A stretch of DNA of 47,760 nt. Source: Candidatus Nealsoniibacteriota bacterium (GTDB lineage Bacteria; Planctomycetota; Planctomycetia; Pirellulales; Thermoguttaceae). Location: positions 1 through 47,760 of the forward strand of contig JABMRB010000793.1 in assembly GCA_013202865.1 (NCBI GenBank), in the 5' to 3' direction. Positions 3,419-40,028 of the stretch are shown piece after piece. A program made the translations under genes and the position numbers. Numbering within the stretch: position 1 is the first letter of the stretch; each line of letters opens with the position of its first letter. A model generated the notes under the pieces. That model searched no databases and had not been told where the DNA came from. It was given only the letters and a program-made list of their open reading frames with translations.

Positions 3419-3477
3419 GTGTTTGGTGAGAGTATTGTCGATCAGAGAACTAGCCCGTTGATGAATTGAGGACTATC

Positions 3478-8619: not shown

Positions 8620-8810
8620 CACCGCGCCGGCGGGTAGATCCGATTTCTTCACCGGGATCGTTACCAAAGGATCTGCACGGCCAGATACGCCGATTGCGCG
8701 TCGTCGCGCCCCCTCTGGAACTTTTCCGCAATCATGACACAATAAGAGGAGCGGCTTGGATCACACGACGTGTCTCGGTGTGTGCCCGGTGGCAAAAGGA
8801 GAGCGAACGC

Positions 8811-15900: not shown

Positions 15901-18196
15901 CGGCGTACACGTCATCGAGCACCCTCAGCCGTTCCTCTACGATCGCACGGGCAGCATCGGCGGCAGCCGGCACTCCGTCGTCGGCCGACCGTTCCAACAC
16001 CGCCGCCAGTTGGCAATTCTCGCGGATCAACTCTTCCAACTGATCGCGCAAGGCGGCTTCCTCGGTCTTGGAGCCTCTCTCGCGAAGCCGCCCGCAGAGC
16101 CATTGCGCCAGGTACGGGGCCCTGGCCCAGACTTTGTCCCGCGTTTGGAACGCGTCGGCGAGTTTTCTAGCGTTCTCGACCGCGGCATGATAGGTGTCGT
16201 GCGGGGGCGTGGACGGTTCTTCCCGCTTCTCGCCGAGCGCCGCCTCCCACTGCTGTGCTGCGTAGCCAAGGCTCTCACTGTCGCCCACGAAGAGATGGTC
16301 CTCGGCCGTTCGGCGTTTCTTGTCGGCCGCTTCCACCGCGGATTGGATCCAATAGTGAGTTCGTTCGTCTTTCGGCGCGGCGGCTTCTTCCGCCTTATTG
16401 CGGAGTTGGAGGGCCCGTTGAACGTGCTCCGCGTTCTGCTGCCACGTGTCCGGGTCGAGATAGGCGTTGAGCATCCGCAGAAACCGCAACTCGATGAGGT
16501 CGGGCTGCTTGCCCGAGTTGGTCTTGTCGACGAACTGCAGTGCTTCGTCCAGTCGGTTCCGTTCGAGCGGCAGCGCCGATTCGTCCGCCTCGCGGCCGTC
16601 CGCGTATTCTCCCCGTGCCCAGTTCCAGGCCGCCTCTGTGGCATCGAGATAGTCCGGTGGCGAAGCATCCTTGGAGTTGGTCTCCGGCGGCGGTGCTCCG
16701 GAGCCGTTTCCATTCGTGTCGCCGCCGTTGGCCGGCTCGGCGGGCTCCGGCGGGTCAGGCTCGCCCGCGGCGGTTTCTACGGGCGTTCCCTCGTCGGCAC
16801 CGGATTCGGCGGGCCGATCTCCCGTGCCGTTTTCGGCCCCGGCCGCCGGGTCTTCCCTTGAGTTCAGCCACGCGTCGAGTTGCTCGCGGGCGACCGCAAC
16901 GTCGTCGGCGTGGGCAACGCGGAGCCGGCGAGCCATAGGCAGACTATGGGCCGCCACGTCGCTGTGGGCCACCGCTTGCTCCAGTTCTCCGGCCAACTTG
17001 TTCAGGTCCAATCCCCTATCACCAGGATTGCCCGCTAGCGTCCACTGCTCCAACTCCAGCAAACCGTGCTGGAACTTCTCGAACTTCAGCGGGTCAACTC
17101 GATACGCATAAGCGTTGCGAAGCTGTTTGTGTCTGTTCCACAACTGGCCCACTTGAGCCCAGGAGATGTTCGTCGGTTCCCACTTGGCGGGTCCAAGCTT
17201 CTGGGTAAAGACGAGCGGGTAGTCGGCATCGGCGGGCAGGAGCATGGGCACCTGGACGTCGTCGCGATTCTTGACCGTCCACTGCTTGACCTCCTTCTGC
17301 AGGTAGGCGATCAGTTCCTGCAAAGAAACTTCTTCATTCTCACGGCCGTCCTCGGCACCATCGGCTTCGCCCCGAAGGCCGCGCCAGAGGAAGTGTCCGA
17401 ACACGGAGCCGGAGAATTGTGGGGCCGCCCAGCCGATCTGGCCGGGGCCGCAGGAGTTCAGCACCGTGAGGTTGCGATCTTCGACGATGGCCTTTTTGAC
17501 GACGTCCTGCAGACGTTCCGCAAAGCCGTTGTAGAGCACTCCCATGTTCCAGTTGGCGTCGATGCGGTTGGCGTCGAGAATCAGGAGTGTCTTGACATTC
17601 TTGCGTTCTTTGAGAGCGTTGAGGAGTTCGCTTACCGGCAACCATTTCTCCGGTACCGGCAGCCATTTGTCCGGCGCCTCTTCCAGAGCCCCGGGAAGTA
17701 GCAGGCACGGGCGGTTTTGCCCGTCGACGATTCCGTGCATGCTGAGATAGATAATCACGAGGTCGCCGCTGGGCCCGCCTAGGTTCAGCTCTTCTGTTCT
17801 GAGCTTCTTCAGTAAGTCCTCCTTGGAAACCTGGTCGAGCTTGGTATGCTTGAAGGCGTTCCTGTCCTTCTTGATTTTGGCGATCCGACTCACGTCTTCG
17901 GTTGCCCAGGCGTTGGGTGGGATCGGCCAAACGTAGTTGGTGGCCGCGAAGGTCACCAGCGGCGTCTGTTGCGGCGTGCGCGTAATGTACCACCAATACC
18001 CTCCGAGCAGCGCGACCAGCACGACGACGTAGGCAGCGAGTTGGAGATTGCGCCGGCGCACGCGACTCTTGTGCGGATCGGCCTTTTTTTCACCTACCCA
18101 GCCAGGGGTCTTCTTGCCCGCGACAGGCTTACGGCGCGAACCGTCTTGCGACTGGCCGCGCCATCCGGGTTTATCAGAGGGAGGCTGGGAAGGCAT
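12953..18196 (-). CDS. Single-TM protein with degenerate caspase-like (C14) domain and C-terminal von Willebrand factor A domain
   Basis: TM LQLAAYVVVLVALLGGYWWYI after basic N-terminus; IIYLSMHG (His motif) but LLILDANRID where DACHSG is expected; VWA VVFVFDSSGSMQD (DxSxS), VIVITDGLNN. Start MPSQPPSDK chosen. Confidence 0.8.
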   Translation of the reverse strand: MPSQPPSDKPGWRGQSQDGSRRKPVAGKKTPGWVGEKKADPHKSRVRRRNLQLAAYVVVLVALLGGYWWYITRTPQQTPLVTFAATNYVWPIPPNAWATEDVSRIAKIKKDRNAFKHTKLDQVSKEDLLKKLRTEELNLGGPSGDLVIIYLSMHGIVDGQNRPCLLLPGALEEAPDKWLPVPEKWLPVSELLNALKERKNVKTLLILDANRIDANWNMGVLYNGFAERLQDVVKKAIVEDRNLTVLNSCGPGQIGWAAPQFSGSVFGHFLWRGLRGEADGAEDGRENEEVSLQELIAYLQKEVKQWTVKNRDDVQVPMLLPADADYPLVFTQKLGPAKWEPTNISWAQVGQLWNRHKQLRNAYAYRVDPLKFEKFQHGLLELEQWTLAGNPGDRGLDLNKLAGELEQAVAHSDVAAHSLPMARRLRVAHADDVAVAREQLDAWLNSREDPAAGAENGTGDRPAESGADEGTPVETAAGEPDPPEPAEPANGGDTNGNGSGAPPPETNSKDASPPDYLDATEAAWNWARGEYADGREADESALPLERNRLDEALQFVDKTNSGKQPDLIELRFLRMLNAYLDPDTWQQNAEHVQRALQLRNKAEEAAAPKDERTHYWIQSAVEAADKKRRTAEDHLFVGDSESLGYAAQQWEAALGEKREEPSTPPHDTYHAAVENARKLADAFQTRDKVWARAPYLAQWLCGRLRERGSKTEEAALRDQLEELIRENCQLAAVLERSADDGVPAAADAARAIVEERLRVLDDVYAEECRVCAEDLGAHKGRCRRIASVLAVPLVTGERRRKLLGIFLTVENDEGEGASTGGPTDEDNDPEQALSPYLSRLVAWSEHPALTILKSVESFNSSLKPAVRNQPLERFAVQGWRVRQRLYGNNAELKPDDLPDGASAPKCVYTETDELLAETRGMLIEGTEATDQAEYSATKTRISCSRADQVVRVSAALLNHDLWTAGVADPTGQLRNLDHHHLMLWHARRAMEDFWGAEPGGKRPFFEIAAESYLTSAETLVDRIVRPAGGDSSPKRISSKAARDRLERLSPVARRLLTPTELQQLLADDQGKTLPHATAVELDAGAALLGNGLPGGKAAYYLHEKKSGPPIRIVGSAGLRIPIAIPGDSKERRPGEYEIANSDYFKSLISEGDSNSSAAMTARVYYRGHVGEQPCRFAAEALHVEYKLEDQDSTVRVSAGERDASVVFVFDSSGSMQDSVDGTELGIKMTGARNALGKMLRRLAASEKPPRVGLIVYGHRNGWNKDIFKKDGKLVPQHKSPPMSSDVQWILTPQPLTQKMKADVIAKLATLKPNGITPLYLSIIMAIKENRVAGEARHVIVITDGLNNQNGHTTDPDTIKINNVDVAVQQSLKDVIKAVDDSRMGDNRLDVVGFALDKPGEERPPSHLETTLKIHDRCSFRPAKATAILQEELEESLGIWNYEVRQRSGSFIQEGTINTAVLIPYGQHERQYDVRVKRKKTTVSKEVSVTGGEGLRLRLTQDGARLVFEPYAPDDGGESRTVGQFVVQAHDPTRAIDGIVDVSIRNAAAEQFSPRPKEVWIEIQPKSGGESNVDVGEIRTFYDSNYKRGEPVPRLMCEDLINWPTNATRAEVRVWFKPRETSPTKTKAVGELIHPANELPPFRIDDVEFKLQTSPLEATTGYRIEIKEMHRPENPLHWVKVEMRPRPDVVERRFYPKVGTACHSFTYKDAKESDVRGYEIRFTTEAAIKKDALKFGDSDSLQIDVRHR

Positions 18197-18243
18197 TGAT
18201 GATCTCCATGATTCGGATTGAGGCACGCACGCCGTCGGCCGAC

Positions 18244-21200
18244 CTATTCCTTCGGCAACCGGATTCTGGCCGGCGTGGTCTTCCCCGTTGCAGCGAGGTC
18301 GACCTCTAGTTGGTTCTTTTCGCCGTAACCGACGCGGGATTGATCTGCCTCATTCGGCTTTGGCTCGATGGTAACACCTTTTGCTTCCATCACAGGGGAT
18401 TTGTTACCGGCGGAATCCGTGGCCTGAAACAGAATGCTGTAGTTTCCCGGCGGCAACAACTTGCCTTTGATCTTGGTGGGCAGTGAAATCAGGCACCAGC
18501 CTCTTGCGTCGGGCTGAGGCGGGGACAAGAGTCTCTCTCCCTTCTCGAGTTCACCCGATCCGTCCTGATCGATACCGACTTCCATCTTGATCTTTTCCAC
18601 GCCGCTGAGGTCCTCGCATTGCAGGCCCAACAGCAGCGGCTCACCCTGGAGGATCCTGCCGTCGGCGACCGTGCCGGTGCAAACGGGTGGCTTGCTGTCC
18701 AGGAAGATCTCGACGGAGTGCCTTGGCGGATCGAGGTCCTCCCGCGTACCGGACGAGGGTAATCTCAAGGCGACCTCCAAACGAACCTTGCCGTCGTCCA
18801 GCCTGTCGTCTTGCAGGTCCATCCGGAAATCCTGCACGCTGGCCCGGACCTTCACCATACCGGTCGGTGTAAGCTCCGGCCGAGCGACGGTCACCTGCCG
18901 ATTGCCGAAAAAAGGCTCGATTTTGACGGGCTCAACACCGCGGCTCTGACTGACAAATCGCACCTGAATATAGCCGGGCGGATCCGCTCCGTGCGGGACC
19001 GTGCCACCCCAATCGGCGAGCTGTCCGCGAGGATCGTCCACCTGGAAAGCCAGCGGGATTGGCCCGTCCGGTCGATACGCCTTGCCTTCCTCGGGCGAGG
19101 TGATGCGTACGCCGGGGCGGTTGATCTTGGAAACCTGCCCGTGTTGTTCCCGCTCGATCCGGAATGCAAAGACCCGCGGGTAGCCATCGACGTGCAATCG
19201 CAGGAAGAGTTCCCTTGGCGCAAGCGGATCGACCGTCATGGGCCACTCCACCGGTTCGTCGGGGGAGGTAATAAGCATCTTCGACCGGACGGTCTTGAAT
19301 CCGACGTCGGGTCCCGTATCCCAGGTCACGTTGATCGGCTTCTTCGAGGAGATCTCGGGTAACGACGGATTGGATCGTCCACGAGCGTCGGTCTTGCGTA
19401 CGCCGACGTGAACGTTGACCGCGCGCTGCCGGGGGTCGTAACTCGGCAACGATTCGAGCTGGACGTATTGCCGCGGATCGACCGGCACGAAGTCCAGCCA
19501 ATAGTACCATGCGGGCGCGGCCGAATCCGTGTCGTTCTTGTCGTGAATCACGCACGCCCACACGCACAGTCCCGAATCCGGCTGGGGATCTACCTCCGTT
19601 TCGGCGCGTGCATCCGGCGGCGCGGCGGGCTTTGGCTCGGTGAACGGAACCTGTTCGGGACCGCTCTTCGGCGGCAGCGTCATGGACTCCGCCGCGGTGA
19701 GCTCCTCCACGCCGAGTTGCCATTTTCCCGCCTTCTTGACGAGCCGGTCGGGCGAAGGCAATTCACTCCGTCGGTGGGTCGACAGTCGCAGCAATTGGAC
19801 CGTCACGTCCTTCTTGTCTTCGGAGAGATTCTGCAGATCGAAACGGAATTCGGTAGCTCGACCGGGAAACGGGCGGAGACTGATCGGATCGGTCCCGGTC
19901 ATGAGCGTGCCGTGTTCTCTGCCCACCCGATACACCTGCAATTCGACCGTATCCGGCGCAGGCAACTTGAACGTAACCTTACAGGGAGGAGCCGTCTTGT
20001 TGCCGGCGCGGACCGACACGTTCACCTCGGGCGGCCTCGTCGCTCGGTTGTCCGCCAAGGCGACGACAGAATACTTGCGGATCGTTTCGTTCTTCTCCAA
20101 CGTAATCTCTTCAGGTTGACCCGGCTCGATTTTCGTTTTTCCGTTGGCCGTCAACACTTGCAGCAGGTCCGGGTAGTAGTCCAGCGTAATCTCGGCCTTT
20201 TGGCCGGAGAGGTCCGTCGCAACAATCTCGATCTGGAACTCTCCCTCGTTCTTGCCCGGACCCAGTTGGGGCGTTTTCGAGCTGCCGGTGACCGTCAACG
20301 CCGGTTGGCCGGGCGGCGGCGGAAACCGGACGTCGCGGACAATGGATCCGACGGTTGCTGCCTCGTGGATCTTTTTCGCGTCTCGCGGGTCGACCAGCCG
20401 GAGCAATCGTTCTGCGCGGCGGAAATCTCCGTCGGCCCGGGCCGCGTGAATCTCCTCAGGCAAGCCTTGGTAGAACGTGCCGAGATCCTTACCGAATGTA
20501 CGGCATGCTTCCCAGAAGCCCTCTTTCTTGGAGCCCGGCTGCTTCAAACCGATTTTCTCGTTCGAGCCGGCCAGCATGACAAGCTGCTTTTCCAAATTCG
20601 CCTGTTTGACGAGGAGTCCACGCTGCCAGTCGGCGAACTTCTTGGCCTCTTCGTTCAACTCGTTCACGTCATCGTCCGTCAACGCGCGAGTTTTCGGAGG
20701 GGTCGATTTCAGGGCGTCCAAGGCATCGAGCAACATGATGCGTTGGTCGCGGGAGAGCAATGGGAAACCCAGCAAGGCCTCAATGCGGCAGGCCCTGCCC
20801 GGCCGCTTAACTCGGAATTCGCTGTTCTTTTCCGGCTTTTCGGCCATTTCCTCGACTTCGCGGTCGAGGCGGTCTCGGAGGCGTTTGGCCGGGCCGCGCA
20901 GTTGCAGCGCGCCGTCGACCAACCCTGTCAGAATACTCTCCATCTGGCTGCGCGACTCCCCGTCGGCCACCGCCGTTTCCAATCGCTCCAAGTCCTTGGT
21001 GAACTGACTCAACTTGTCAAGCAGTCCGGAAACGTCGTCATACGCGTCGTCGTGCGGATGAGTCTCGGCGCTGGTGGAAGCCTGCGAAAGGCGTGCGTAC
21101 CACCGGAGGTAGTAGGGCGCCGCAAAGACGAGATCGTTCTTCAGTTGGACCAGCTCCCGGACCTTGGCTGTGGTCTCCTTCTCCCGGGGTATTCCCTTGA

Positions 21201-22446
21201 AGCCCACGTGACATTTGCTCTGCTCCTGCCAGAACTTCTCGTCGCGATTCGCCATGACAACCTGGAGGCCGGTGTCTAGTTCGGCTCTGTTGATCCCTTT
21301 GCCGCCCCGATAGCGCGACTCGTAATGCACCAGCTTTTCGAGATACTCGCGCCAAAGATGAGGAGCGTAGTCGACCGGCAACCAGGAATCGTCTTGGCGT
21401 GTCATTCTCTCGGGAAGTTCCCATGCCTGTTTCGCGAATTCTCTCACCGACGGCGGGGTCTCGTCCAGCGCGGCGGGCTTCTCTTGCCCGTTGCCGGCGC
21501 CTCCGGGCGTCTCTTTCGACGACTTCTCGGCAGCGGCACACACCAGGACATCGTCCGGCGGATTCGTGACGGTTCCCTCGCCGCCTTGCAGCAGCCAGGG
21601 TGTCTGGACTTGCCGGCCGCCGACCTCGCGCTCTACCCAACTGCCGACCCCGTCGCGAACGTATCGATAAAGCTCCGCCAGGCCGACGTTGCCGTCCGAG
21701 TCGTCTGCACGATTGGCGGCCCCCTTGAGTCCCTCGGTGACGTAGTAGCCGAAGATCGATCGGCCTGCTGGAAATGAGGCATGAGAGGCCTGCAACGGGC
21801 GGTTCGACGTCAGCACCCACAATCTGCGGTCGTCGAGTTCCTTCAGTTTCTTCTCCAATATCCGGGGAAACTCGTTGGCCAGCATCCCCAGGCGCGGGTC
21901 GGAGGCAATATGGCCGACATCCAGGATCAGCAGCTTTCGTTTCGCCCGACAGCCCCGAAGCCGGTCGAGCAATTCGCCAAGCTCGTATCGCTTCTCTTTC
22001 GACTGCCCGTCGTAGTCGACGCACAGCAAATAGGCGGTGCCGTCCTGAGAAACCCCGTGAGCCGACAGGTAGCAGATCAGAACGTCTCTGCGGCCGGTGT
22101 CGATTCCGTCCAATTCACCGTCGAGGCCCGCCACGTCCCGCAACACGTGCCGTTGTTTCTTCGGCTCAGTCAACGACACGCCTTTCAGTTGTTCAAGGTC
22201 CTCCTCGCCGAATGGAATGGTCGGAACCGTCAGCCGGTCGTATTCGACGACCGACAGGCAGACCAGATGCGTCTTGGACGGCGAATACCACAACCAGATC
22301 AGCCAGACGAGCAATCCCATCAGGACCAGTGTAATGGTGCCGAACAGGGTCCGATTCACCCATCTTGTCGTTGTCGACGACTGGGCCACCTCCTTGCCTC
22401 GCCATCCGCCTTCGGGTGACGGAGAAACGTGATCGCTTTGTGTCAT
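18244..22446 (-). CDS. Single-TM protein with degenerate caspase-like (C14) domain and long C-terminal Ig/bacterial-surface-like region
   Basis: TM TLFGTITLVLMGLLVWLIWLW; LICYLSAHG His motif, LLILDVGHIASDP replacing the Cys motif; C-terminus with YSILFQATDSAGNKSPV Ig-like motif. Start MTQSDHV chosen. Confidence 0.75.
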   Translation of the reverse strand: MTQSDHVSPSPEGGWRGKEVAQSSTTTRWVNRTLFGTITLVLMGLLVWLIWLWYSPSKTHLVCLSVVEYDRLTVPTIPFGEEDLEQLKGVSLTEPKKQRHVLRDVAGLDGELDGIDTGRRDVLICYLSAHGVSQDGTAYLLCVDYDGQSKEKRYELGELLDRLRGCRAKRKLLILDVGHIASDPRLGMLANEFPRILEKKLKELDDRRLWVLTSNRPLQASHASFPAGRSIFGYYVTEGLKGAANRADDSDGNVGLAELYRYVRDGVGSWVEREVGGRQVQTPWLLQGGEGTVTNPPDDVLVCAAAEKSSKETPGGAGNGQEKPAALDETPPSVREFAKQAWELPERMTRQDDSWLPVDYAPHLWREYLEKLVHYESRYRGGKGINRAELDTGLQVVMANRDEKFWQEQSKCHVGFKGIPREKETTAKVRELVQLKNDLVFAAPYYLRWYARLSQASTSAETHPHDDAYDDVSGLLDKLSQFTKDLERLETAVADGESRSQMESILTGLVDGALQLRGPAKRLRDRLDREVEEMAEKPEKNSEFRVKRPGRACRIEALLGFPLLSRDQRIMLLDALDALKSTPPKTRALTDDDVNELNEEAKKFADWQRGLLVKQANLEKQLVMLAGSNEKIGLKQPGSKKEGFWEACRTFGKDLGTFYQGLPEEIHAARADGDFRRAERLLRLVDPRDAKKIHEAATVGSIVRDVRFPPPPGQPALTVTGSSKTPQLGPGKNEGEFQIEIVATDLSGQKAEITLDYYPDLLQVLTANGKTKIEPGQPEEITLEKNETIRKYSVVALADNRATRPPEVNVSVRAGNKTAPPCKVTFKLPAPDTVELQVYRVGREHGTLMTGTDPISLRPFPGRATEFRFDLQNLSEDKKDVTVQLLRLSTHRRSELPSPDRLVKKAGKWQLGVEELTAAESMTLPPKSGPEQVPFTEPKPAAPPDARAETEVDPQPDSGLCVWACVIHDKNDTDSAAPAWYYWLDFVPVDPRQYVQLESLPSYDPRQRAVNVHVGVRKTDARGRSNPSLPEISSKKPINVTWDTGPDVGFKTVRSKMLITSPDEPVEWPMTVDPLAPRELFLRLHVDGYPRVFAFRIEREQHGQVSKINRPGVRITSPEEGKAYRPDGPIPLAFQVDDPRGQLADWGGTVPHGADPPGYIQVRFVSQSRGVEPVKIEPFFGNRQVTVARPELTPTGMVKVRASVQDFRMDLQDDRLDDGKVRLEVALRLPSSGTREDLDPPRHSVEIFLDSKPPVCTGTVADGRILQGEPLLLGLQCEDLSGVEKIKMEVGIDQDGSGELEKGERLLSPPQPDARGWCLISLPTKIKGKLLPPGNYSILFQATDSAGNKSPVMEAKGVTIEPKPNEADQSRVGYGEKNQLEVDLAATGKTTPARIRLPKE

Positions 22447-22652
22447 GGCCACCGATCCTCGCAACAAGCGTCCACAGTACCGATCCCTACACCACCAAAC
22501 GGATTCTACGACAACAGTCGGCAAGATGGTAGCCCCAAGCGTCTGGCGGGCAGCGCCCGGGGCACCTGCCGGCTCCCGTTCTTTTGGCAAGTTGGCGAAG
22601 TGGCGCTGGCTTTCCCCGGCCGAAAAGGGGGAGATTTCCGATCGGCACGTCC

Positions 22653-22681
22653 TTGACCCGGGATAGCCGATCGTGTATACA
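22653..22681 (+). promoter_or_regulatory. Candidate sigma70-type promoter upstream of tssK
   Basis: TTGACC (22653-22658), 17-nt spacer, TATACA (22676-22681), 34 nt before the tssK ATG; matched by eye only. Confidence 0.4.
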
Positions 22682-22715
22682 GGATTGCTGTGTTGATCGG
22701 GATGGGAGGGACGAA

Positions 22716-24134
22716 ATGCGTAATCTACCGGTACACTGGTCGGAAGGCTTGTTCTTGCGGCCCCACCATTTCCAGGCCGCCGACCGGTTCTGGACCGAGT
22801 CGCTGCAAACCTCGGAGCATTGGGACCACCAGTACAACTACGGTGTTCGTTCGCTGCAGATCAGCGAGGAGGCGATCGCCAACTACCAGGTCCAGGTGAA
22901 CCTCTGCCAAGGGCGAATGAAGGATGGCACGTTGGTCTCGCTGGAGCCGGGCCAGGAACCGGACCGGGTCGATCTGAACGAAGCCTTTGCGACCGAATCG
23001 ACCGTACGCGTGTATCTCGCCGTGCCGAAGCTCAAGATGGGCAGCCCCAACGTGGGAAGCGACGTCGCCGGAAAGCAACGCTATCTGGGTGGCACGGAAT
23101 CGCTGCAAGATGAGAGCGCCGGTGGAAACGATCAGGACGTCGGGCTTCGCAATCTCAACGTGCGGGTGCTGCTGTCGACGCAGGATCTGGCCGGATACGA
23201 GGTCCTGCCGATCGCCCAAATTCAACGGGCCGGCGACCGGGAGGCGACGCCGCGAGTGGACGGCAGCTACTTTCCGCCGATGTTGGCGATCGATGCCTGG
23301 CCGCCGTTTTTGGGAAGAGACGTCGTCCGCGCAGTTTACGACGTCATCGGCATGAAGATCGACTTGCTCAGCCAGCAAGTGGTCAACCGCGGCATCGGGT
23401 TTGCCGCCCAGATGCCCGGCGATTTGGATCGTCTGATGATGTTGATGCTGTTGAATAACGCCTACTCGGTATTGCGGGTGTTGACGTTCGCCTCCGGCGT
23501 GCATCCGCTGGTGGCGTACACCGAGTTGTGCCGCATTGTCGGGCAGTTGGCGATCTTCTCCCCCGAGCGGCGGGCTCCGGAAGTCCCCCTGTACGATCAT
23601 GACGACTTGGCGGGGATCTTCCACAAGGTGAAGGACCTGATTCAGGCGCTGATGGCGGAGATCGGCGACTACGAGTATGAGCAGCGGTTCTTCGAGGGCC
23701 GGGGCCGGGGAATGGCCGTGGCCATCGAGTCGGGATGGTTCAACACCGACTGGCAATGGTTCGTGGGTGTTTACCGGGGAAGCCTCAACAAGGACGAGTG
23801 TCTCGCCCTGCTCTCACCCGGCAGGCTCAATTGGAAGCTCGGCAGTGCCCGTCAGGTCGAAGCCTTGTTCACTCACGGAGCCCCGGGACTTCAACTGACG
23901 CCACTGGCCCAGGCCCCCCGCGCGCTGCCGCCGGCCGGCGACGTGATGTACTTCGAGGTGACCCGGGGAAACGCCGCCTGGAACGACGTGCTGGAAACCG
24001 AAACACTGGCGATGCGACTGAACGAGACGGTGATCGCCAACCGGGACGATCTACAAGGACAACAGGAACTGGTTGTCTCCCTGGAAGGCCGGCAGTCGCG
24101 GCTTCGTTTTGCCCTGTTCGCGGTACCGGAGTAG
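22716..24134 (+). CDS. tssK: T6SS baseplate protein TssK
   Basis: MRNLPVHWSEGLFLRPHHFQAADRFWTE...; family hallmark VHWSEGLFLRPHHFQ; SLNKDECLALLSPGRLNWKLGS. Confidence 0.95.
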   Translation: MRNLPVHWSEGLFLRPHHFQAADRFWTESLQTSEHWDHQYNYGVRSLQISEEAIANYQVQVNLCQGRMKDGTLVSLEPGQEPDRVDLNEAFATESTVRVYLAVPKLKMGSPNVGSDVAGKQRYLGGTESLQDESAGGNDQDVGLRNLNVRVLLSTQDLAGYEVLPIAQIQRAGDREATPRVDGSYFPPMLAIDAWPPFLGRDVVRAVYDVIGMKIDLLSQQVVNRGIGFAAQMPGDLDRLMMLMLLNNAYSVLRVLTFASGVHPLVAYTELCRIVGQLAIFSPERRAPEVPLYDHDDLAGIFHKVKDLIQALMAEIGDYEYEQRFFEGRGRGMAVAIESGWFNTDWQWFVGVYRGSLNKDECLALLSPGRLNWKLGSARQVEALFTHGAPGLQLTPLAQAPRALPPAGDVMYFEVTRGNAAWNDVLETETLAMRLNETVIANRDDLQGQQELVVSLEGRQSRLRFALFAVPE

Positions 24135-24136
24135 TC

Positions 24137-24802
24137 ATGACGCCGAAATTCGCCAAGGCGGTTGACCCGGTCTTCATGCGGGTGCTTGGTCTGCTGGAGC
24201 GGATCGAACGGGATCGTAACCTCTCGCCGGAAGAGGAACGGGTGACGATTCGTAGCGATCTGGACGCGGCGGAGCGACGCTTGGGCCAAAGTGAAGAATG
24301 GAAGTTGGCCAAGTACGGCCTGGTGTCGTGGATCGACGAGGTGCTCATTGAGGCCCCGTGGGAGAAAGGCCGTAACTGGTGGAAGGAGAATTCGCTGGAG
24401 TGGGTATATTTCGGGACGAATTCGCGTTTCGAGAGGTTCTTCGAGCAGGCCGAGGAGGCAAACAAGCAGCCGCAGAAGGACGCCCTGGAGGTCTTCTACG
24501 TCTGTCTCGTGCTCGGCTTCCGCGGGCTCTACCGCGACCCCGAACAGGCCCCCGCGTTGGCCGGTCCGCTGGGGATCCCCACAAGAATCGGGGACTGGGC
24601 CAGCCAGAAGGCGAAGGCCATCCACGGAGGTGACCGGCCCAATATCTCCGAGGGCCACGAGCCGATCGACGGCGCCGAGCCGCTGGAGGGGCCCGTCATG
24701 TTGATTTGGTCCGTGCTCTTGGCGCTGGTGCTGGCTGCCGTGACGGGATTTGTCGCGTGGATGTTCTGCTTCCCCTCCTCGTTCGGGGGACCGCAAACAT
24801 GA
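24137..24802 (+). CDS. tssL: T6SS membrane protein TssL (DotU/IcmH family)
   Basis: AKYGLVSWIDEVLIEAPW..., EVFYVCLVLGFRGLYRD; C-terminal TM MLIWSVLLALVLAAVTGFVAWMFCF; next gene start overlaps (ATGA). Confidence 0.92.
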   Translation: MTPKFAKAVDPVFMRVLGLLERIERDRNLSPEEERVTIRSDLDAAERRLGQSEEWKLAKYGLVSWIDEVLIEAPWEKGRNWWKENSLEWVYFGTNSRFERFFEQAEEANKQPQKDALEVFYVCLVLGFRGLYRDPEQAPALAGPLGIPTRIGDWASQKAKAIHGGDRPNISEGHEPIDGAEPLEGPVMLIWSVLLALVLAAVTGFVAWMFCFPSSFGGPQT

Positions 24803-26427
24803 TGAGCTTCTTTCGCCGAATCGTGGATACGATCACCTATCCGCTCAGAGCGCTGCTCTATTCGCCGAGCAAGCTGTTCGCCCCGTTGCGGTGGTTGGCG
24901 AGGCTCTCGCTGCCGACAAAAGTGTCCATCCTGGCGTTCATCTTTCTCGTGGTCCTTGCGGTGATCTGGCTGATAGTGAGCTACGCGACCGCGACGGCTG
25001 GGGCCCCAGCCAGCGTTTGGGCCAAGGATTGGTGGCAACTGACAATCCTCGTGGTGCTGATCCCGATCTTCCTCTACCACACCCTGAAATTCTGGCTGCA
25101 AGGTGAAATCTCGCCCTATCCGGACATCGATCACGCCTGGAAGGCCGGGCTGGCCGAGCTTCAACAGCAGGGTCTCGACCTGGCGAGAACGCCCCTGTTT
25201 CTGATCCTCGGTTCCGCCGGTGAAAACCAGGAGAGGGCCCTGTTCCACGCCTCGCAAGTTAATTTCAACATGGAGGCGGTCCCGCACGGTCCCGCCCCGT
25301 TGCATTGGTACGGCAGCGCCGACGGCGTTTATCTGGTATTCACGGGTGCCGGGTGCCTGAGCAAGCTGGCTGGTGTCGCCAGGCAGGTCGCCGACAAGGA
25401 GCGCGTTGGGCCCTCGCCTAGTCCTCCGCGGGCTGCGGCGCCGGACCAGCCGGTGCGCCAGACCATAGTCGCCAAGAACGGCGTGCCCGACGGCGCACCC
25501 GACACACCTCGACCGGCGGCGGACGAGAGACCCGCGCCCGCGTTTGATATCCGCGGAACCATGCAGGTTTCAACCGATGCAGTCGACATTTTGCCCGCCC
25601 CGGGAGCAGCATCGGAGAAGCGGGTCATCAAGCTCGACAAGGACGACACCATCGAGCAAGCCCGGCGGTTGCAGTACGTCTGCGGGCTCATCCGCCGACA
25701 GCGACAACCGCTGTGTCCGATCAACGGAATCCTGGCGCTATTGCCGTTCGGTCTGATCCAAAGAAGCCCCGGGGAAAAGAGCATACTGCAGGGCGCGGTC
25801 GAGAAGGATCTTTCGACCGTTTCGCGGGTGTTGATGCTCCGTTGTCCGGTAACCGCCCTGGTGGTCGGCATGGAAGAGGAGAGCGGTTTTCAGGAACTGG
25901 TGCGGCGTCTGGGACGCGAGCGTGCCGTGAGCCAGCGTTTCGGCAAAGGCTATTCGCTGTCGAACCCCCCCTTGCCCGACCGGCTCGATGCGCTCTGTAC
26001 GCACGCCTGCGGCGCGTTCGAAGACTGGGTCTATGCCATGTTTCGCGAGCGAGACGCGCTGACCCGAACGGGCAACACTAAGCTCTACTCCCTGTTGGTG
26101 AAGATCCGACGCGACGTGCGGGGGCGCTTGGCGGATATCCTGGCGTACGGTTTTGGGACGAAGGACGAGCCGGATCAACGATCTGACGGGCTGCTGTTCA
26201 GCGGCTGCTATTTCGCCGGCACCGGCGACGAGGAAGATCGCCAGGCGTTCGTCAAGAGTGTTTTCGAGAAATTGCCGGAGCAGCAGGAGGAGGTGCAGTG
26301 GACCAGTTCGGCAATTCGTCAGAATGAGAAGATGTTGAGTATCACTCAGGGTATCCTCGTATTCTGTACTGCGATGATCGTGTTGCTGGTGGCTTTCGGC
26401 GTCTACAAGGTGGTCTTCCAGGTGTAG
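24799..26427 (+). CDS. tssM: Short TssM/IcmF-like protein lacking the periplasmic domain
   Basis: Two N-terminal TMs, central cytosolic domain with LFLILGSAGENQERAL at the usual Walker A position, C-terminal TM ILVFCTAMIVLLVAFGVYKVVF followed by stop; located between tssL and downstream genes. Confidence 0.8.
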   Translation: MMSFFRRIVDTITYPLRALLYSPSKLFAPLRWLARLSLPTKVSILAFIFLVVLAVIWLIVSYATATAGAPASVWAKDWWQLTILVVLIPIFLYHTLKFWLQGEISPYPDIDHAWKAGLAELQQQGLDLARTPLFLILGSAGENQERALFHASQVNFNMEAVPHGPAPLHWYGSADGVYLVFTGAGCLSKLAGVARQVADKERVGPSPSPPRAAAPDQPVRQTIVAKNGVPDGAPDTPRPAADERPAPAFDIRGTMQVSTDAVDILPAPGAASEKRVIKLDKDDTIEQARRLQYVCGLIRRQRQPLCPINGILALLPFGLIQRSPGEKSILQGAVEKDLSTVSRVLMLRCPVTALVVGMEEESGFQELVRRLGRERAVSQRFGKGYSLSNPPLPDRLDALCTHACGAFEDWVYAMFRERDALTRTGNTKLYSLLVKIRRDVRGRLADILAYGFGTKDEPDQRSDGLLFSGCYFAGTGDEEDRQAFVKSVFEKLPEQQEEVQWTSSAIRQNEKMLSITQGILVFCTAMIVLLVAFGVYKVVFQV

Positions 26428-26463
26428 CCCTCACGGGTATCATTTCAATTGGAGGTGTCGGTT

Positions 26464-26865
26464 TTGTCATCTTTTGCATCCGATCCGCAAGACGCTGATG
26501 GCGCGCCGCAGTCGGTCCCGGCCGAGGCCGGTTCACCCGGCGGCCAGCCGTACGATCGGGCCCTGCTCGAACGCGTCTTGCAGGAGACGCTCACCGACGA
26601 GAGCGCCCGCGAGTCGCTCTCCGGCGTGGACAGGGCTGCCCTGCTGGGCGTGGCGGCCCGCTATCGAAATCAACCGCTGTCGCTCGACCCGATTGTGATT
26701 GCATTGATCGAGGCGATGGTACAAACGCACTTCGGGATCCTGTCGGATGTGGCGGAATTCTGGCGGCCGATCACCGCCCAGATCGGCCGGACCTTGTGGG
26801 ACGATCCTGTGGCGCGTGCGCGGCTGGAAGTGTTTTGGCACCGCTTGTGCGAGGTGGAGCCATGA
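26464..26865 (+). CDS. Small hypothetical T6SS-linked protein
   Basis: ORF preceded by GGAGG; TTG start uncertain; stop overlaps the sigma-factor ATG (ATGA). Confidence 0.6.
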   Translation: MSSFASDPQDADGAPQSVPAEAGSPGGQPYDRALLERVLQETLTDESARESLSGVDRAALLGVAARYRNQPLSLDPIVIALIEAMVQTHFGILSDVAEFWRPITAQIGRTLWDDPVARARLEVFWHRLCEVEP

Positions 26866-27905: not shown

Positions 27906-29030
27906 ATGGCTTCATCCGAAACGTTCGATTTCGAGCAACTCTTGGCACCCATCGCGGGAGAGAATCCGGCCGGCGAGAACCTCCGCGAGGACCCGGCCTA
28001 CGACTCGCTCTACAACCAGATCGCCGCGGCGCGAAACCGGGCCGGCGAGGCGGAACGTGACGCGCTGCGCGACGGAAAGGGACCGGATCTTCTGCGCAAC
28101 GATCCGAAGGACTGGCAACCGATCCTGGAACTCGGCTGCGAGGCGATCTCGCATCGGTCGAAGGACCTCAAGGTGGCCGCCTTCCTGATCGAAGCGCTGG
28201 TCCGCGTCCACGGCTTCGCGGGGCTTCGCGACGGGTTTCGCCTGGTCCGCAAGCTGGCGGAGGATTTCTGGGACGGCCTCTATCCCCGCCCGGACGAGGA
28301 CGGCGTGATCACGCGGATGGCCCCGCTGACGGCGCTCAACGGCGAAGACGGGCCGGGAACGCTGATCCGCCCGATCACCAAGGTGGCGCTGACGCAAGGC
28401 CGCGTTTACGGGCCGTTCTCCCTGTTGCACCACAGGACGGCAGCCCAGTCGACCGGGGGCGACGGGCTTGCCGAACAAGACGACGCCGTTACCCTGGAGA
28501 CGTTCGACGCCGCGGTCCGAGAAACGCCGCCGGAGTGGTTCGCCGAACTGCACGGCGATTTGGCACAGTGTCTGGACGAATTCAAGGCGCTGGGCGACGC
28601 GTTGGAAGAGAAGTGCGGTGAAGACGACTCGGGCGAATCGCTGGCTCCCCCGTCGTCGAACATCCGCAAGGCGTTGAAGGAATGCCGCGAGATGCTCAAC
28701 GAGATCGCCCCGCCGAGCGAATCGGAATCCGACGCCGCGGAAGCCGACCCGGGAGAAACCGGATTGCCCGTGACGACGACGCCCGGCCAGGTACCCGGCC
28801 AACTCCAGACGCGGCAGGAGGCGTTCCGCATGTTGCAGCGAGCGGCCGACTTCTTCCGGCGGACCGAGCCGCACTCGCCGGTCTCGTACGCCCTGGAGCA
28901 GGCCGTCCGGTGGGGCGAGATGCCCTTGCCCAAGTTGCTGACGGAACTGATTCCCGACGAATCGGCGCTCGAACGGATTTTCAAGGTCGTGGGGATCCAA
29001 CCGCCGAAGGAAGAGCAGGAGGAATACTAG
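27906..29030 (+). CDS. tssA: T6SS protein TssA (ImpA N-terminal domain)
   Basis: LLAPIAGENPAGENLREDPAYDSLYNQI...; ILELGCEAISHRSKDLKVAAFLIEALVRVHGFAGLRDG...FWDGLYPRPDEDG; C-terminal RTEPHSPVSYALEQAVRWGEMPLPKLL. Confidence 0.95.
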   Translation: MASSETFDFEQLLAPIAGENPAGENLREDPAYDSLYNQIAAARNRAGEAERDALRDGKGPDLLRNDPKDWQPILELGCEAISHRSKDLKVAAFLIEALVRVHGFAGLRDGFRLVRKLAEDFWDGLYPRPDEDGVITRMAPLTALNGEDGPGTLIRPITKVALTQGRVYGPFSLLHHRTAAQSTGGDGLAEQDDAVTLETFDAAVRETPPEWFAELHGDLAQCLDEFKALGDALEEKCGEDDSGESLAPPSSNIRKALKECREMLNEIAPPSESESDAAEADPGETGLPVTTTPGQVPGQLQTRQEAFRMLQRAADFFRRTEPHSPVSYALEQAVRWGEMPLPKLLTELIPDESALERIFKVVGIQPPKEEQEEY

Positions 29031-29365: not shown

Positions 29366-29896
29366 ATGGCAAAAAGCGTACATGACGATCTGGGGAGGCG
29401 CCGCAAGCCTCGGGTCCACATCAGATACGATGTGGATATCGGTGACGCGCAAGAGAAGCGAGAACTCCCGTTCGTGGTCGGGGTGCTCGGCGATTTCTCC
29501 GGAGATCCGACCGAGAAGCTCAAGCCGTTCCGGGATCGCGAGTTCATCCAAATCGATCGCGACAACTTCGCTAAGGTGATGAAGCGGATGACGCCCGGTG
29601 CGAATTTCCGCGTGGAGAACACGCTCGAGGGCGACGGCAGCGAACTGTCCGTCCAGTTGAAGTTCGAGTCGATGGAGGACTTCGAGCCCGCCAACATTGC
29701 CAAACAGGTCAAACCACTGCAGAAACTCCTGGAGACCAGGAACAAGCTGCGGGACCTGCTGACCAGAATCGACATGGAGCCGGAGTACGAAGGCCTCTGG
29801 GAAGAGGTCCTCAAGAACACCGAACAGCTCCAGAAGCTCGAAAGCGAGCTGGGCGGGGCCGCTTCCGACAGCGAGAAACAGGAGGATGAATCATGA
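29366..29896 (+). CDS. tssB: T6SS sheath small subunit TssB
   Basis: [60 protein letters not shown]. Confidence 0.97.
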
Positions 29897-31410
29897 GCGC
29901 AGGCAAAGAATCTAAAGCCCGGGCACAAGGCGCGGAGGCCGAATCGAAACTGCTGAGCCTGGACGACATCGTCCAGGCCACGGCCGCCCTGCCGCAGACC
30001 GAAAAGAATCGCGCCCAAGACATGGTCGAAACCGCCGTCACTGCGGCGATGGAAGGCACGATCAAATTCGACAAGAACCCCACCCGGACCTTGAAGCAGG
30101 GAATCCAGGCGATCGACGCCCAGATCTCCAAGCAACTGGCCGCGGTGATGCACAACGATAAATTCCAGAATCTCGAAGGGACCTGGCGCGGCCTGCACCA
30201 CCTGGTGATGGCCAGCAACACGGGCCCGATGATGAAAATCAAGCTGCTCAACGCGCCGAAAAAGGATCTGGCCAAAGATCTGGACAACGCGGTCGAGTTC
30301 GACCAGAGCCTGCTGTTCAAGAAGGTCTATACCGAAGAATTCGGCACGCCTGGTGGCGAACCCTACGGGGCCCTGATCGGTGACTACCAGTTCGGCGTCC
30401 ACCCTGATGACATCGACTTCCTCACGAAGGTTTCCGGCGTGGCGGCCGGGGCCTTCTGCCCGTTTATCTCGGCCGCCTCTCCCGACCTGTTCGGCCTGAA
30501 GAGCTTCACCGATCTCTCCACGCCCCGCGATCTGGCGACGAAGTTCGACGCGATCGAGTACACGCAGTGGAATTCGTACCGCCAGAAAGAGGACTCCCGG
30601 TTCGTGACCCTGGTGATGCCGCGTGTGCTCTCGCGGCTGCCCTACGGCGCCAATACCAAGCCGATCAGCGAGTTTGATTTTGAAGAAGTCGAACTCGACA
30701 AGAAGGGCAAAGCTAAGCCGGTGCCCCACGAGGACTACGCCTGGATGAACGCGGCCTACGTGATGGGCGTGCGGTTGACCGAGGCCTTTGACGAAACCGG
30801 TTTCTGCACGCGGATCCGAGGAATGGAGAACGGCGGGCGAGTCGGCGACCTGCCGGCCCACATCTTCACCTCCATGGACGGTGACTCGAAAATGAAGTGC
30901 CCCACGGAAATCTTGATTCCCGACCGGCGCGAAAAAGAACTCAGCGACCTCGGATTCCTGCCCCTGTGCCATTGGAAGAACAGCGACTGCTCGGTCTTCA
31001 TCGGTGCACAAACTACGCAGAAACCGAAGAAGTATGGTACGGTTAAGCCGGCAGATGAGGCGGCAACGAAAAACGCCGCCATTTCGGCGCGCCTGCCCTA
31101 CATTATGGCGGTCTCGCGAATTGCCCATTTCCTCAAGGCAATCGCCCGCGATAAGATCGGCTCCTACAAAGAACGGGCGGACATGGAAAAGTTCCTCAAC
31201 GGTTGGATCGCCGACTACGTCAGCGCCGACCCCACCGCCAGCGCCGAGGTCAGGGCCAGTTATCCGTTGCGGGCGGCGGAGATCACGGTCCAGGAAGTTC
31301 CCGGTGCTCCCGGCTCGTATAACGCCGTCTGCAAGCTTCAGCCTTGGCTCCAGTTGGAGGAACTGACGACGTCGCTGCAACTGGTTGCCAGCCTACCGAA
31401 GAAAGCCTAG
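29893..31410 (+). CDS. tssC: T6SS sheath large subunit TssC
   Basis: [83 protein letters not shown] overlap with tssB. Confidence 0.97.
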
Positions 31411-31418
31411 GCGTCGAT

Positions 31419-32987
31419 ATGAGCGCCGGATTCGCCGACAGCGACAACCGTGCCGCGATGCCCGCCGGGGGTATCTCGCTATCGGACTTGGTCCAATCGG
31501 CCCTGGCGGCCTCGCCCGCGGCGGATGAGGCCGGCTTCGGTCTCGGTCGGTTCCTCGCCGAGCCCTCACCCGGCGAGGCGTTGTTGAGGTGGTTCGGCGG
31601 CACGATCCCCAAGAGCAAGGAGCAGGTTGCCCGGCAACTCAGTCACGACATTGCGTGGCTGGACGAGGCGATCTCGCGGCAGGTCAACGCCGTCTTGCAC
31701 CACCGGCGGTTTCAGCGGCTCGAGGCCTCCTGGCGCGGGTTGCAGTACCTGGTCCAGCAACAGGTGGAAGACCGAGGTATCAAGATCCGCGTGCTGAGCG
31801 TTTCCTGGAAGGAGTTGGCGCGGGATATCGACCAGGCGATCGAATTCGACCAGAGCCAGTTGTTCCGCAAGGTCTACACGGCGGAGTTCGGGATGCCCGG
31901 CGGAGAACCGTTCGGCGTGTTGTTGGGCGACTACGAAATCTGGCCCGGCCCGTGTACGGAACATCCGGTCGACGATCTCAAAGTGCTTGAGGGGATTTCC
32001 GGGGTGGCGGCGGCGGCTTTTGCCCCGTTCGTCGCCGGGGTTCATCCGGCCATGTTCGGCCTGAGCGACTTTTCCGGCTTTCAGCAGCACGTCGATCTGG
32101 CCCCGGTTTTTGAGCAAGTCGAGTATCTGACGTGGCAGGCGTTTCGCAAGAAGCCCGATTCCCGATTCATCGCCCTGACGCTTCCCCGCGTGTTGATGCG
32201 GTTGCCCTACGAGGACGACGGTTCCCGGGTCGACGGCTTTTGTTTCCGCGAGGACGTCACCGGCCCGAACAGAGACGCCGGCGGCCTAACCGGGGACATT
32301 GGCGGCCCCGACAAGTATCTCTGGGGCAACGCCAGCTACGCGTTCGGGGCCGTGCTGATGCGGTCCTATGCCCGGAGCGGATGGTTTGCGGATATTCGGG
32401 GAGTGCGGCGCGACCTCGAAGGAGGCGGCGTGGCAACCGGCCTGCCGGTCCACTGGTTCTCGACCGACCGGTCCGGAGTTGCCGCGAAATGTTCGACCGA
32501 CGTGATCGTCACCGACGACCGCGAGCCCGAGCTTAGTGACCTGGGCTTCATTCCTTTGTGTCACTGCGCCGACACGGAGTATTCGGCCTTTTACGCCACC
32601 TCGTCGGTTCAGAAGCCGAAGCGATACGACGATCCGCGATCCACGATGAACGCCCGGATCTCCGCCATGTTGCAGTACACGATGTGCGTGTCCGTTTTTG
32701 CCCACTACGTGAAGGTCATCGTGCGCGACAAGATCGGAGCGTTTACCGGCGCCGGACAGTGCCAGGACTACCTGAACGAATGGCTCACGCAGTACGTCAC
32801 CCGCGACGCCGACGCCAGCACGGAGGTCAAGGCCGCCCGGCCCCTGCGCGAAGCCGAAGCGGAGGTCCGTCCTGTTCCGGGTGAAGAAGGCCACTACTCG
32901 TGTACCGTTCGCCTGTGGCCACATTTCGAGTTGGACGAACTGGCCTCGATGCTGCAGTTGAAGACCCTGTTGAAGGGGCCGACTTGA
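31419..32987 (+). CDS. Second TssC-family sheath protein (TssC paralogue)
   Basis: LEASWRGLQYLVQQ, VYTAEFGMPGGEPFGVLLGDYEIWPG, FIALTLPRVLMRLPYE, LSDLGFIPLCHCADTEYSAFY, VFAHYVKVIVRDKIGA; parallel to the upstream tssC. Confidence 0.92.
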   Translation: MSAGFADSDNRAAMPAGGISLSDLVQSALAASPAADEAGFGLGRFLAEPSPGEALLRWFGGTIPKSKEQVARQLSHDIAWLDEAISRQVNAVLHHRRFQRLEASWRGLQYLVQQQVEDRGIKIRVLSVSWKELARDIDQAIEFDQSQLFRKVYTAEFGMPGGEPFGVLLGDYEIWPGPCTEHPVDDLKVLEGISGVAAAAFAPFVAGVHPAMFGLSDFSGFQQHVDLAPVFEQVEYLTWQAFRKKPDSRFIALTLPRVLMRLPYEDDGSRVDGFCFREDVTGPNRDAGGLTGDIGGPDKYLWGNASYAFGAVLMRSYARSGWFADIRGVRRDLEGGGVATGLPVHWFSTDRSGVAAKCSTDVIVTDDREPELSDLGFIPLCHCADTEYSAFYATSSVQKPKRYDDPRSTMNARISAMLQYTMCVSVFAHYVKVIVRDKIGAFTGAGQCQDYLNEWLTQYVTRDADASTEVKAARPLREAEAEVRPVPGEEGHYSCTVRLWPHFELDELASMLQLKTLLKGPT

Positions 32988-33034
32988 CGTAGGCGCGATC
33001 GCGCCGACCGACAGTGCCAAGGAGACAGTCAACC

Positions 33035-33862
33035 GTGAAAGCCAAAGAACTCTATGAGGCGGGAAAGCTCAACGACGCGGTCGCCGCCGCCATTGAGGAG
33101 GTGCGGCGTCACCCGACCAATGCAGCACACCGGTGGTTGCTCTGCGAACTGCTCTGTTTTGCCGGCGAGTTGGAACGCGTCGACAAGCACCTCGATCTGA
33201 TGGCGACGCAGGACCCCAAAATGGTCGCGCCGCTGAGCCTGTTTCGCCAGTTGATTCGGGCCGAGCAGGCGCGCGTGGATTTCTACGGCGAGGGACGGTT
33301 GCCCGAGTTCATGGGCAAACCGTCCGCCGGGCTCCAACTTTGCCTGGAGGCGTCGATTCGGACCCGCGAAGGAAAATCGGATGAAGCGGCTGCCCTGCTG
33401 CAGCAGGCGGAAGAGCAACGCACACCCGTCGTCGGCAACTCGGGCGGCAAACCGTTCGACGACTTGCGAGACATGGACGATATGACGGCGCCCTTTCTCG
33501 AGGTCTTCACCAGCACGGGCAAGTACTTTTGGATCCCCATTGAAAGCATCCGCCGGATCGAGTTCCGCAAACCCGAGCGCCTGGGTGATTTGCTCTGGCG
33601 CCGCGCCAATCTGGCCGTCTGCGGAGGGCCTGACGGAGAGGTCTTTCTGCCGACCCGATACGCCGGCTCCCACGAGGAACCGGACGACGACGTGCGACTC
33701 GGACGTGCGACCGACTGGCGAGGCGACGACGGTTGCCCGGTACGCGGCGTCGGGCAGCGGATGTTCATGGTCGGCCAGCAAGACCTGGGGATCCTGGAAA
33801 TTGAAGATTTTGACGTCAGCAATCCGGTATCCCTAAGCACCGATGACCCGACCCAAGCGTGA
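33035..33862 (+). CDS. tagJ: T6SS accessory protein TagJ/ImpE
   Basis: GTG start; AKELYEAGKLNDAVAAAIEEVRRHPTNAAHRWLLCELLCFAGELERVDKHLD; FLEVFTSTGKYFWIPIESIRRIEFRKPERLGDLLWRRA; YAGS. Confidence 0.93.
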   Translation: MKAKELYEAGKLNDAVAAAIEEVRRHPTNAAHRWLLCELLCFAGELERVDKHLDLMATQDPKMVAPLSLFRQLIRAEQARVDFYGEGRLPEFMGKPSAGLQLCLEASIRTREGKSDEAAALLQQAEEQRTPVVGNSGGKPFDDLRDMDDMTAPFLEVFTSTGKYFWIPIESIRRIEFRKPERLGDLLWRRANLAVCGGPDGEVFLPTRYAGSHEEPDDDVRLGRATDWRGDDGCPVRGVGQRMFMVGQQDLGILEIEDFDVSNPVSLSTDDPTQA

Positions 33863-34337
33863 CCAACCGCTGGTTTCCTCCGTACTCGATCGCCTGCTGG
33901 ACGACCAGCCGGACGCGACCGGGGAGAATATCGAGACGCAATACCAGGTGCTTCGCGAGTTGAAGCGGAGTGTCCGGCGCGACTTGGAGAACCTGCTGAA
34001 CACGCGCTGGCGCTGCACGACGTGGCCCGAGGATCTGAAGGAACTGGAGCGTTCGCTGGTCAACTACGGGGTCCCCGACGTTACCGGGACCGACCTGGGA
34101 TCGAAAGAGCGCCGGCAGGATCTCTTGACGGTGCTCAGCGCGATCGTCGAGCGTTTTGAGCCTCGGTTGAAAGACGTGGAGATCACGATGCTCGACAATG
34201 CCGAACCCCTGGATCGCGTGCTGAGATTTCGCATTCGGGCGATGCTGCACGTCGAACCGGAGCCGGAGCCGGTGACGTTCGACTCGACACTGCAGCCGAC
34301 CACGGGCAACGTGGAAGTCAAAGGAACGGATCGATGA
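33843..34337 (+). CDS. tssE: T6SS baseplate protein TssE (gp25-like)
   Basis: SVLDRLLDDQP; RDLENLLNTRWRCTTWPEDLKELERSLVNYGVPDVTG; VERFEPRLKDVEITM. Confidence 0.93.
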   Translation: MTRPKRDQPLVSSVLDRLLDDQPDATGENIETQYQVLRELKRSVRRDLENLLNTRWRCTTWPEDLKELERSLVNYGVPDVTGTDLGSKERRQDLLTVLSAIVERFEPRLKDVEITMLDNAEPLDRVLRFRIRAMLHVEPEPEPVTFDSTLQPTTGNVEVKGTDR

Positions 34338-36178: not shown

Positions 36179-37268
36179 GCGAGCAATTGCGCCGCGAAGC
36201 CTACCGCTTTGACTTCTTCCAGGCGGTTCGCCTGCTGCAAAGCGAGGCCGCCAAGCAATCGAGCCCCCAGCGCGATCGGCGGCGATACCCGGTGGGAAAG
36301 GACTACCCACCGCAGCAAGAGGCGGTCCGATTTCGGGCCCTGCCGTCGCATGGTTTCCCGGCCGGCCCGATCGAGGAGATCCGCGACGCTGACGACCAGA
36401 CTGCGGCGGGCCGCAAGGCCGGTCCCCCGGAAATGCTCGTGACGTTCATGGGCCTGACCGGTCCCAACGGCGTCTTGCCGCGGCACTACACGACGATGCT
36501 GATCGAACGCCTGCGGGGCGGCGACCGGCACAAGAGCGATCCCACGCTCCAGAACTTCTTCGATCTGTTCAACCACCGCGTGATCTCGCTGTTCTATCGG
36601 GCTTGGGAGAAGTACCGGTTTGCGATCGCTTACGAGCGATGCGAGGCCGACGGCAACGACCGGGAAGATCTCTTCACTCGCTGTTTGTATTGCCTGGTCG
36701 GACTCGGCACCGACGGGCTGCGGGAGCGGATGGAATTCGACGACGAGGCGTTTCTCTACTACGCGGGCGGTTTTGCCCACCGCGGGCGATCGGCCGTTTC
36801 GCTTCAGACGATGCTGGCCGACTACTTCGAGATGCCCGTCGAAGTGCGGCAGTTCGTTGGCACGTGGCTCTACCTCGACCGTGACGACCAGTCGGCGCTG
36901 CCGAGCAGCCGGTTGCCGGAGGGACTCAACTCACAACTGGGCACCAGTGTGGTCGTCGGCGAGCGGGTGTGGGACGTGGAGAATAAGTTCAGAATCCGTC
37001 TCGGGCCGGTGGGGTATCGAGACTTCTGCCAGTTCGTACCTTCCGGCGACGCCTTGCGGTGCCTCTGCCAGTTGGTACGCTCGTACGTGGGGCCCCAGTT
37101 CGATTTCGACGTTCAGCCGGTGCTCCGCGGAGAAGAAGCCCCCTGGTGCAAGCTGGGCGGCGACGGGGCCAATGGCGACGGGGCCCGACTCGGTTGGAAT
37201 ACGTGGATCCGAAGCGGTGCATTCGACCGCGACGTTTCCGATGCCGTTTTTTCCCTGGAAGGATTGCC

Positions 37269-37287
<19 letters not shown>
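36142..37287 (+). CDS. tssG: T6SS baseplate protein TssG
   Basis: EAYRFDFFQAVRLLQ; MLVTFMGLTGPNGVLPRHYTTMLIERLR; FFDLFNHRVISLFYRAWEKYRF. ATG 36142 within the longer open frame. Confidence 0.95.

Positions 37288-40028
<2,741 letters not shown>

Follow-up and report, generated by a model that had tools for sequence, protein, structure and literature searches.

The T6SS encoded in the stretch of planctomycete DNA analysed here (47,760 nucleotides, hereafter the window) carries a TssM that ends directly after its third transmembrane segment (TM3), and this truncation is almost certainly real and conserved. Two giant proteins with single-pass, periplasmic architecture, A and B, are encoded in the same clusters. 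They are very probably T6SS-associated components and, as argued from association and topology, probably form a trans-periplasmic bridge in place of the TssM periplasmic domain and the lipoprotein TssJ. The window encodes a near-complete T6SS, best explained as a class-wide variant whose membrane complex has been rebuilt. Besides TssL (DotU), it has TssA, B, C, D, E, F, G, H, I and K, and the features are listed in Table 1.

Table 1. Features of the T6SS region in the window (positions are those of the window).
Feature	Position	Strand	Description
giant protein A	12953..18196	-	1747 aa; GWRGQS tail, single TM, degenerate caspase-like domain, helical region, VWA with MIDAS, beta-rich C-terminus
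giant protein B	18244..22446	-	~1400 aa; GWRGKE cytosolic tail, single TM, degenerate caspase-like domain, helical region, Ig/beta C-terminal half
intergenic region	22447..22715		common to the divergent B-A pair and tssK-L-M
tssK	22716..24134	+	Pfam T6SS_VasE, E 4e-74
tssL	24137..24802	+	Pfam DotU, E 6e-29; short, C-terminal TM, no OmpA/peptidoglycan-binding domain
tssM, short form	24799..26427	+	542 aa; TM1-TM2, cytosolic pseudo-GTPase/IcmF-related_N domain without P-loop, TM3, ~10-residue tail, stop
small ORF after tssM	26449..26865	+	up to 138 aa; does not encode a TssM domain; weak conservation in two relatives (G087, G105)
tssA	27906..29030	+	Pfam ImpA_N
tssB	29366..29896	+	homologous to tssB ORFs preceding tssC in relatives
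tssC, first copy	29893..31410	+	Pfam VipB
tssC, second copy	31419..32987	+	Pfam VipB
tagJ/impE	33014..33862	+	Pfam ImpE
tssE	33843..34337	+	Pfam GPW_gp25
tssF	34334..36178	+	Pfam T6SS_TssF
tssG	36142..37287	+	Pfam T6SS_TssG
tssH/clpV	37269..40028	+	Pfam AAA_2, ClpB_D2-small
hcp (tssD)	42188..42670	+	Pfam T6SS_HCP
vgrG (tssI)	42905..45082	+	Pfam Phage_GPD, Phage_base_V

The window holds several further features. Two adjacent tssC (VipB) genes follow a single tssB (29893-32987), and a second tssC-like gene was also found in several relatives (e.g. L051, L058, L065). Between tssH and hcp lies a CHAP (amidase-like) ORF (40118-40891), a candidate peptidoglycan-acting effector with similarly placed homologs in G087 (L059, L075). 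Directly 3' of vgrG, an FHA domain is fused to DUF4123 of the VgrG-chaperone type (45144-46160). Ser/Thr kinase-WD40 and kinase-TPR genes are located upstream (3466-10775), and in relatives, STK-WD40 homologs are repeatedly found next to T6SS genes (L041, L047, L050, L060, L077).

In the window, tssM is third in a tssK-tssL-tssM run and its ATG overlaps the tssL stop codon (ATGATGA). Hydrophobic segments at residues ~33-70, 78-101 and 511-540 correspond to the TM1-TM2 hairpin and TM3. The reading frame has exactly the extent given in Table 1 and closes about 10 residues past TM3, in agreement with the original prediction, made from the window, that the protein stops a few residues beyond this segment. 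Residues 287-485 matched Pfam IcmF-related_N (PF14331) with an E of 1.5e-10 and 41.3 bits against a cut-off of 25, while a weak second PF14331 match, on C1338, was below the cut-off (E 0.09). When a profile of 13 short TssMs was compared with full-length planctomycete TssM using hhalign, the TM1-to-TM3 half was aligned over 356 columns (E 4.8e-17, 98.8%), and no profile-profile alignment was obtained with the periplasmic half. In the alignment, GSAGENQERA of the window falls column for column on GPPGSGKSTA of full-length TssM, so that the Walker A site is lost, as had been predicted. The motif GxxGxGK[ST] occurs in none of the 16 short TssMs read and in 24 of 30 long-TssM loci of the phylum, several of the other loci being cut fragments. 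From its sequence, the cytosolic domain of short TssM is predicted to be nucleotide-binding-dead. In a TssM-like ORF of G489 (L078 6386-9271), a Ser/Thr protein kinase-like domain is fused ahead of the TssM cytosolic half, in a single 962-aa frame.

The spread of the short form was followed in two samples. Among 392 genomes of the phylum, TssM was found with PF14331 in 83, and the lengths, whose comparison across the phylum had been suggested as a check, separate the classes: in the window's class, each of the 16 genomes with TssM carries the short form (frames of 542-611 aa), whereas frames in other classes are mostly 880-1683 aa, anything shorter being confined to a few fragmented genomes. 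A second sample, 298 genomes drawn separately from the window's class and including the 16, gave short TssM in 127. Longer-looking frames (G489, G495, G591, G451, G639 and G643) were read directly; the extra length was N-terminal or in the linker, and all of them end after TM3. The truncation of TssM is ancestral.

Genome-wide profile searches for the TssM sub-domains and TssJ, another check suggested, gave PF14331 in all 16 short-TssM genomes together with two absences. TssJ (PF12790) was over the cut-off in 0 of the 16 compared with 6 of 12 long-TssM relatives, and the TssM periplasmic domain PF06761 was found in 0 of 16 compared with 5 of 12. PF06744 was likewise over the cut-off in none of the 16, but is weak in long-TssM genomes too and so adds little. 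Since several short-TssM genomes are single contigs (closed), the absence of TssJ and PF06761 does not come from incompleteness; because the genome that holds the window is a MAG of 1456 contigs with 81% completeness, the absences rest mainly on these closed relatives. Profile searches for a full-length TssM or a TssJ elsewhere in the genome found neither. A conserved T6SS-linked lipoprotein as a substitute for TssJ was sought by a lipobox scan of the loci, and only scattered, unshared candidates were obtained. No TssJ-like lipoprotein ORF was present in the window. The original prediction was therefore right on this last point, and also in concluding that a different anchoring route is needed. 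Its extension to planctomycetes as a whole has to be narrowed to the window's class, since other classes keep full-length TssM, and TssJ in 6 of 12 tested.

The giant proteins were found by clustering the ORFs around short tssM genes. A and B lie back to back in the window, divergent from tssK; the ORF of A spans 12953-18226(-), and the coding starts were taken as 18196 (A) and 22446 (B). In a related family, A homologs are located directly downstream of tssM and the second giant directly upstream. The 32 giants collected are 1,400-1,880 aa in size. In each, a single TM is found near the N-terminus (residues 24-79) and none further on, and the tail before it carries more positive charge than the residues that follow it, which predicts an N-in/C-out topology. 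A W[RK] motif occurs in 30 of 32 tails compared with 11 expected when each tail was shuffled, and is kept although the remaining cytosolic tail is not conserved. The first periplasmic domain matched NCBIfam NF047832 far below the curated cut-off (B, E 9e-10; A, E 1e-4), and the catalytic Cys at the D-x-C position is missing in 30 of 32 giants. An apparent His-Cys dyad (TGHG ... IDSCR/IDTCR) was observed in one giant each of G121 and G339 (L074 5855-10783, L076 4071-9149). The helical region was modelled with low confidence (pLDDT 59) and its best structural match had an E of 0.16. Profile-profile comparison aligned A with B over ~626 columns (E 1.6e-42), making them paralogs. Pfam VWA_2 was found in all six A members scanned, the window copy being below the gathering cut-off, and the VWA fold is backed by Foldseek matches to VWA domains.

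Giants were found in 16 of 16 short-TssM genomes, as a pair in 15 and as one protein of the A type in G087, and in all 16 they adjoin T6SS genes (tssM/L/K, or vgrG, hcp, tssH and FHA genes). Among the best few candidates scored per genome in the phylum scan, no full-size giant was seen in long-TssM genomes. The only full-size match beyond short-TssM genomes in that scan was in G298, a fragmented genome outside the class with no TssM detected; its A-type giant (L060 2235-7178) lies beside an STK-WD40 gene on a 7.7-kb contig and may reflect transfer, contamination or an incomplete genome. The class was scanned with the shared A/B N-terminal profile, and matches at E<=1e-36 were taken as strong. 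Scoring the best few candidates per genome, this gave a strong match in 111 of 127 genomes with short TssM (95 of 111 without the training genomes) and in 1 of 171 without TssM, counts that are not numbers of independent events, the class genomes being phylogenetically related. Two of the 16 non-matching TssM-bearing genomes, G523 and G489, were read directly and carry a giant-like ORF beside tssL or tssM. TssM and a giant share one contig in 54 genomes and are within 10 kb of each other in 31 of these; in some genomes the giants are 50-500 kb from tssM, though beside vgrG/hcp.

We read the giants as replacing the TssM periplasmic domain and TssJ because they are tied to a bridge-less TssM, their topology suits a bridge and their genes lie in the T6SS clusters. 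From this we infer that they bridge, what the W motif does, how the outer membrane is contacted and which part touches what, as follows. TssM would be reduced to its inner-membrane and cytosolic half, which together with TssL and TssK would still dock the baseplate. The paralogs A and B would stand in for the bridge that the periplasmic domain of TssM normally builds with the lipoprotein TssJ. The cytosolic tail of each giant may touch the TssK/L/M base via the W-[R/K] motif. Each giant would place 1,300-1,700 residues in the periplasm, with the degenerate caspase-like domain as a scaffold and the helical region as a long stalk; the outer membrane, or proteins in it, could be bound at the far end, by the VWA domain in A and the Ig-like region in B. 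Several results weigh against the bridge: the giants have no sequence homology to the TssM periplasmic domain, the helical region gave no confident structural match, an outer-membrane anchor was seen in neither A nor B nor any conserved neighbour, in some genomes the giants are far from tssM, and in G087 a single giant was found. On balance, though by a narrower measure of confidence than for the bridge itself, we favour a T6SS architecture, distinct and class-wide, that keeps half of TssM and forms its trans-periplasmic channel from two giant pseudo-caspase proteins, one VWA-tipped and one Ig-tipped, independent of both TssJLM and TssNQOPR.

An unlikely alternative, although the best of those considered, is that the inner-membrane complex is truly minimal: the short TssM, TssL and TssK would hold the baseplate, the spike would cross the periplasm unguided, and A and B would be accessory regulators, e.g. 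contact or damage sensors, that trigger firing. The original prediction had also spoken of a minimal membrane complex, a description that does not stand now that two giant single-pass periplasmic proteins, which it had not linked to TssM, are found in T6SS clusters (12953-22446(-) in the window). Sensory and conflict proteins often carry caspase-like and VWA domains, which are also found in regulatory ones, profile-profile comparison of the giants with the TssM periplasmic domain gave no sequence homology, and the Ser/Thr kinases and FHA proteins in the clusters make a signalling input plausible; yet the presence of A and B is near-obligatory, they form a paired single-pass architecture with large periplasmic parts, the catalytic Cys is nearly always missing, and they are coupled strictly to the loss of the TssM periplasmic domain and TssJ and not to T6SS in general.

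It is less probable still that A and B are surface or periplasmic adhesins or receptors which draw target cells near and are co-inherited with the T6SS while remaining outside the apparatus. The predicted N-in/C-out anchoring in the inner membrane, with no lipobox or barrel that could serve as an outer-membrane anchor seen in A, B or any conserved neighbour, argues against this, as does the conservation of the W-[R/K] motif in a cytosolic tail that otherwise varies. The features that would fit adhesion are the Ig-like repeats and the VWA domain of A, in which the MIDAS residues (DxSxS and TDG) are conserved and the motif is apparently intact (D-x-S-x-S, with conserved T and D); pilus adhesins and integrins are among the Foldseek matches of this region.

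Decay of the T6SS, or its conversion into, say, a contractile device of the cytosol for which a trans-envelope complex is no longer needed, would explain why the P-loop, TssJ and the periplasmic domain of TssM are missing, but is very improbable given that sheath, tube, spike, baseplate, ClpV, TssK-L and regulators have intact frames and that a matching gene set is kept in many genomes. Finally, the idea that a frameshift, an assembly error or transcriptional slippage makes or rescues the truncation, with full-length TssM being produced, has a precedent in Citrobacter rodentium tssM1, which lacks in-frame C-terminal codons and is rescued at a run of 11 A (PMC4256274), but can practically be set aside and, on sequence comparison, is already refuted, because the end point is kept in 15 other, diverse genomes and across 127 of 298 class genomes, no A/T homopolymer lies near the tssM stop, unlike in Citrobacter, and no periplasmic-domain coding sequence follows tssM or occurs elsewhere in the window's genome.

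If the giants do bridge the periplasm, TssM would be divisible into a baseplate-docking core half and a replaceable bridging half, and it would become testable which portion of the membrane complex the recruitment of the baseplate depends on. A gene pair hitherto unannotated as T6SS is now a concrete candidate in planctomycetes. Earlier papers noted T6SS genes in Rhodopirellula baltica and in Planctomycetacia but gave no structural detail (PMC2660368, PMC5394234, PMC6461901), and the literature searched, mostly outside subscription journals, gave no description of an arrangement of short TssM with giants.

Compared with known systems, the first periplasmic domain of A and B resembles NF047832 (caspase, EACC1-associated type) by a weak sequence match, and differs in being embedded in a giant membrane protein and in its missing Cys. 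The annotated tssM frames of Citrobacter rodentium and Yersinia pseudotuberculosis also stop early (PMC4256274), but their stop is late (residue 807) and bypassed by slippage, whereas that of the window is directly past TM3 with nothing after it. In Acinetobacter baumannii the T6SS has no TssJ and compensates with TsmK and other envelope proteins (PMC10564176); there, too, a TssJ loss is met by lineage-specific envelope proteins, but TssM is kept with a modified C-terminal domain and there are no giants.

With the canonical T6SS-i TssJLM complex (EAEC Sci-1 type) the window shares the tssK-tssL-tssM run, TssL, and the TM1-TM2, cytosolic domain and TM3 of TssM, and departs from it in lacking the entire TssM periplasmic domain, the P-loop and TssJ, with two giant pseudo-caspase proteins instead. 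The Bacteroidota T6SS-iii replaces TssJLM with TssNQOPR, whose components include the periplasmic proteins TssQ, TssO and TssP, each with a single N-terminal TM, a TssR with a VWA domain, and PKD-like domains (PMC10781749). The likeness lies in a phylum-level swap of the trans-envelope part for lineage-specific single-N-TM periplasmic proteins, and the TssR VWA and Ig-like PKD domains are echoed in domain content by the VWA of A and the Ig-like parts of B. The Bacteroidota have lost TssL and TssM entirely, whereas the window's class keeps TssL and half of TssM and two giants only were seen. On this comparison, periplasmic VWA/Ig proteins seem to have been recruited to one job independently in distant phyla.
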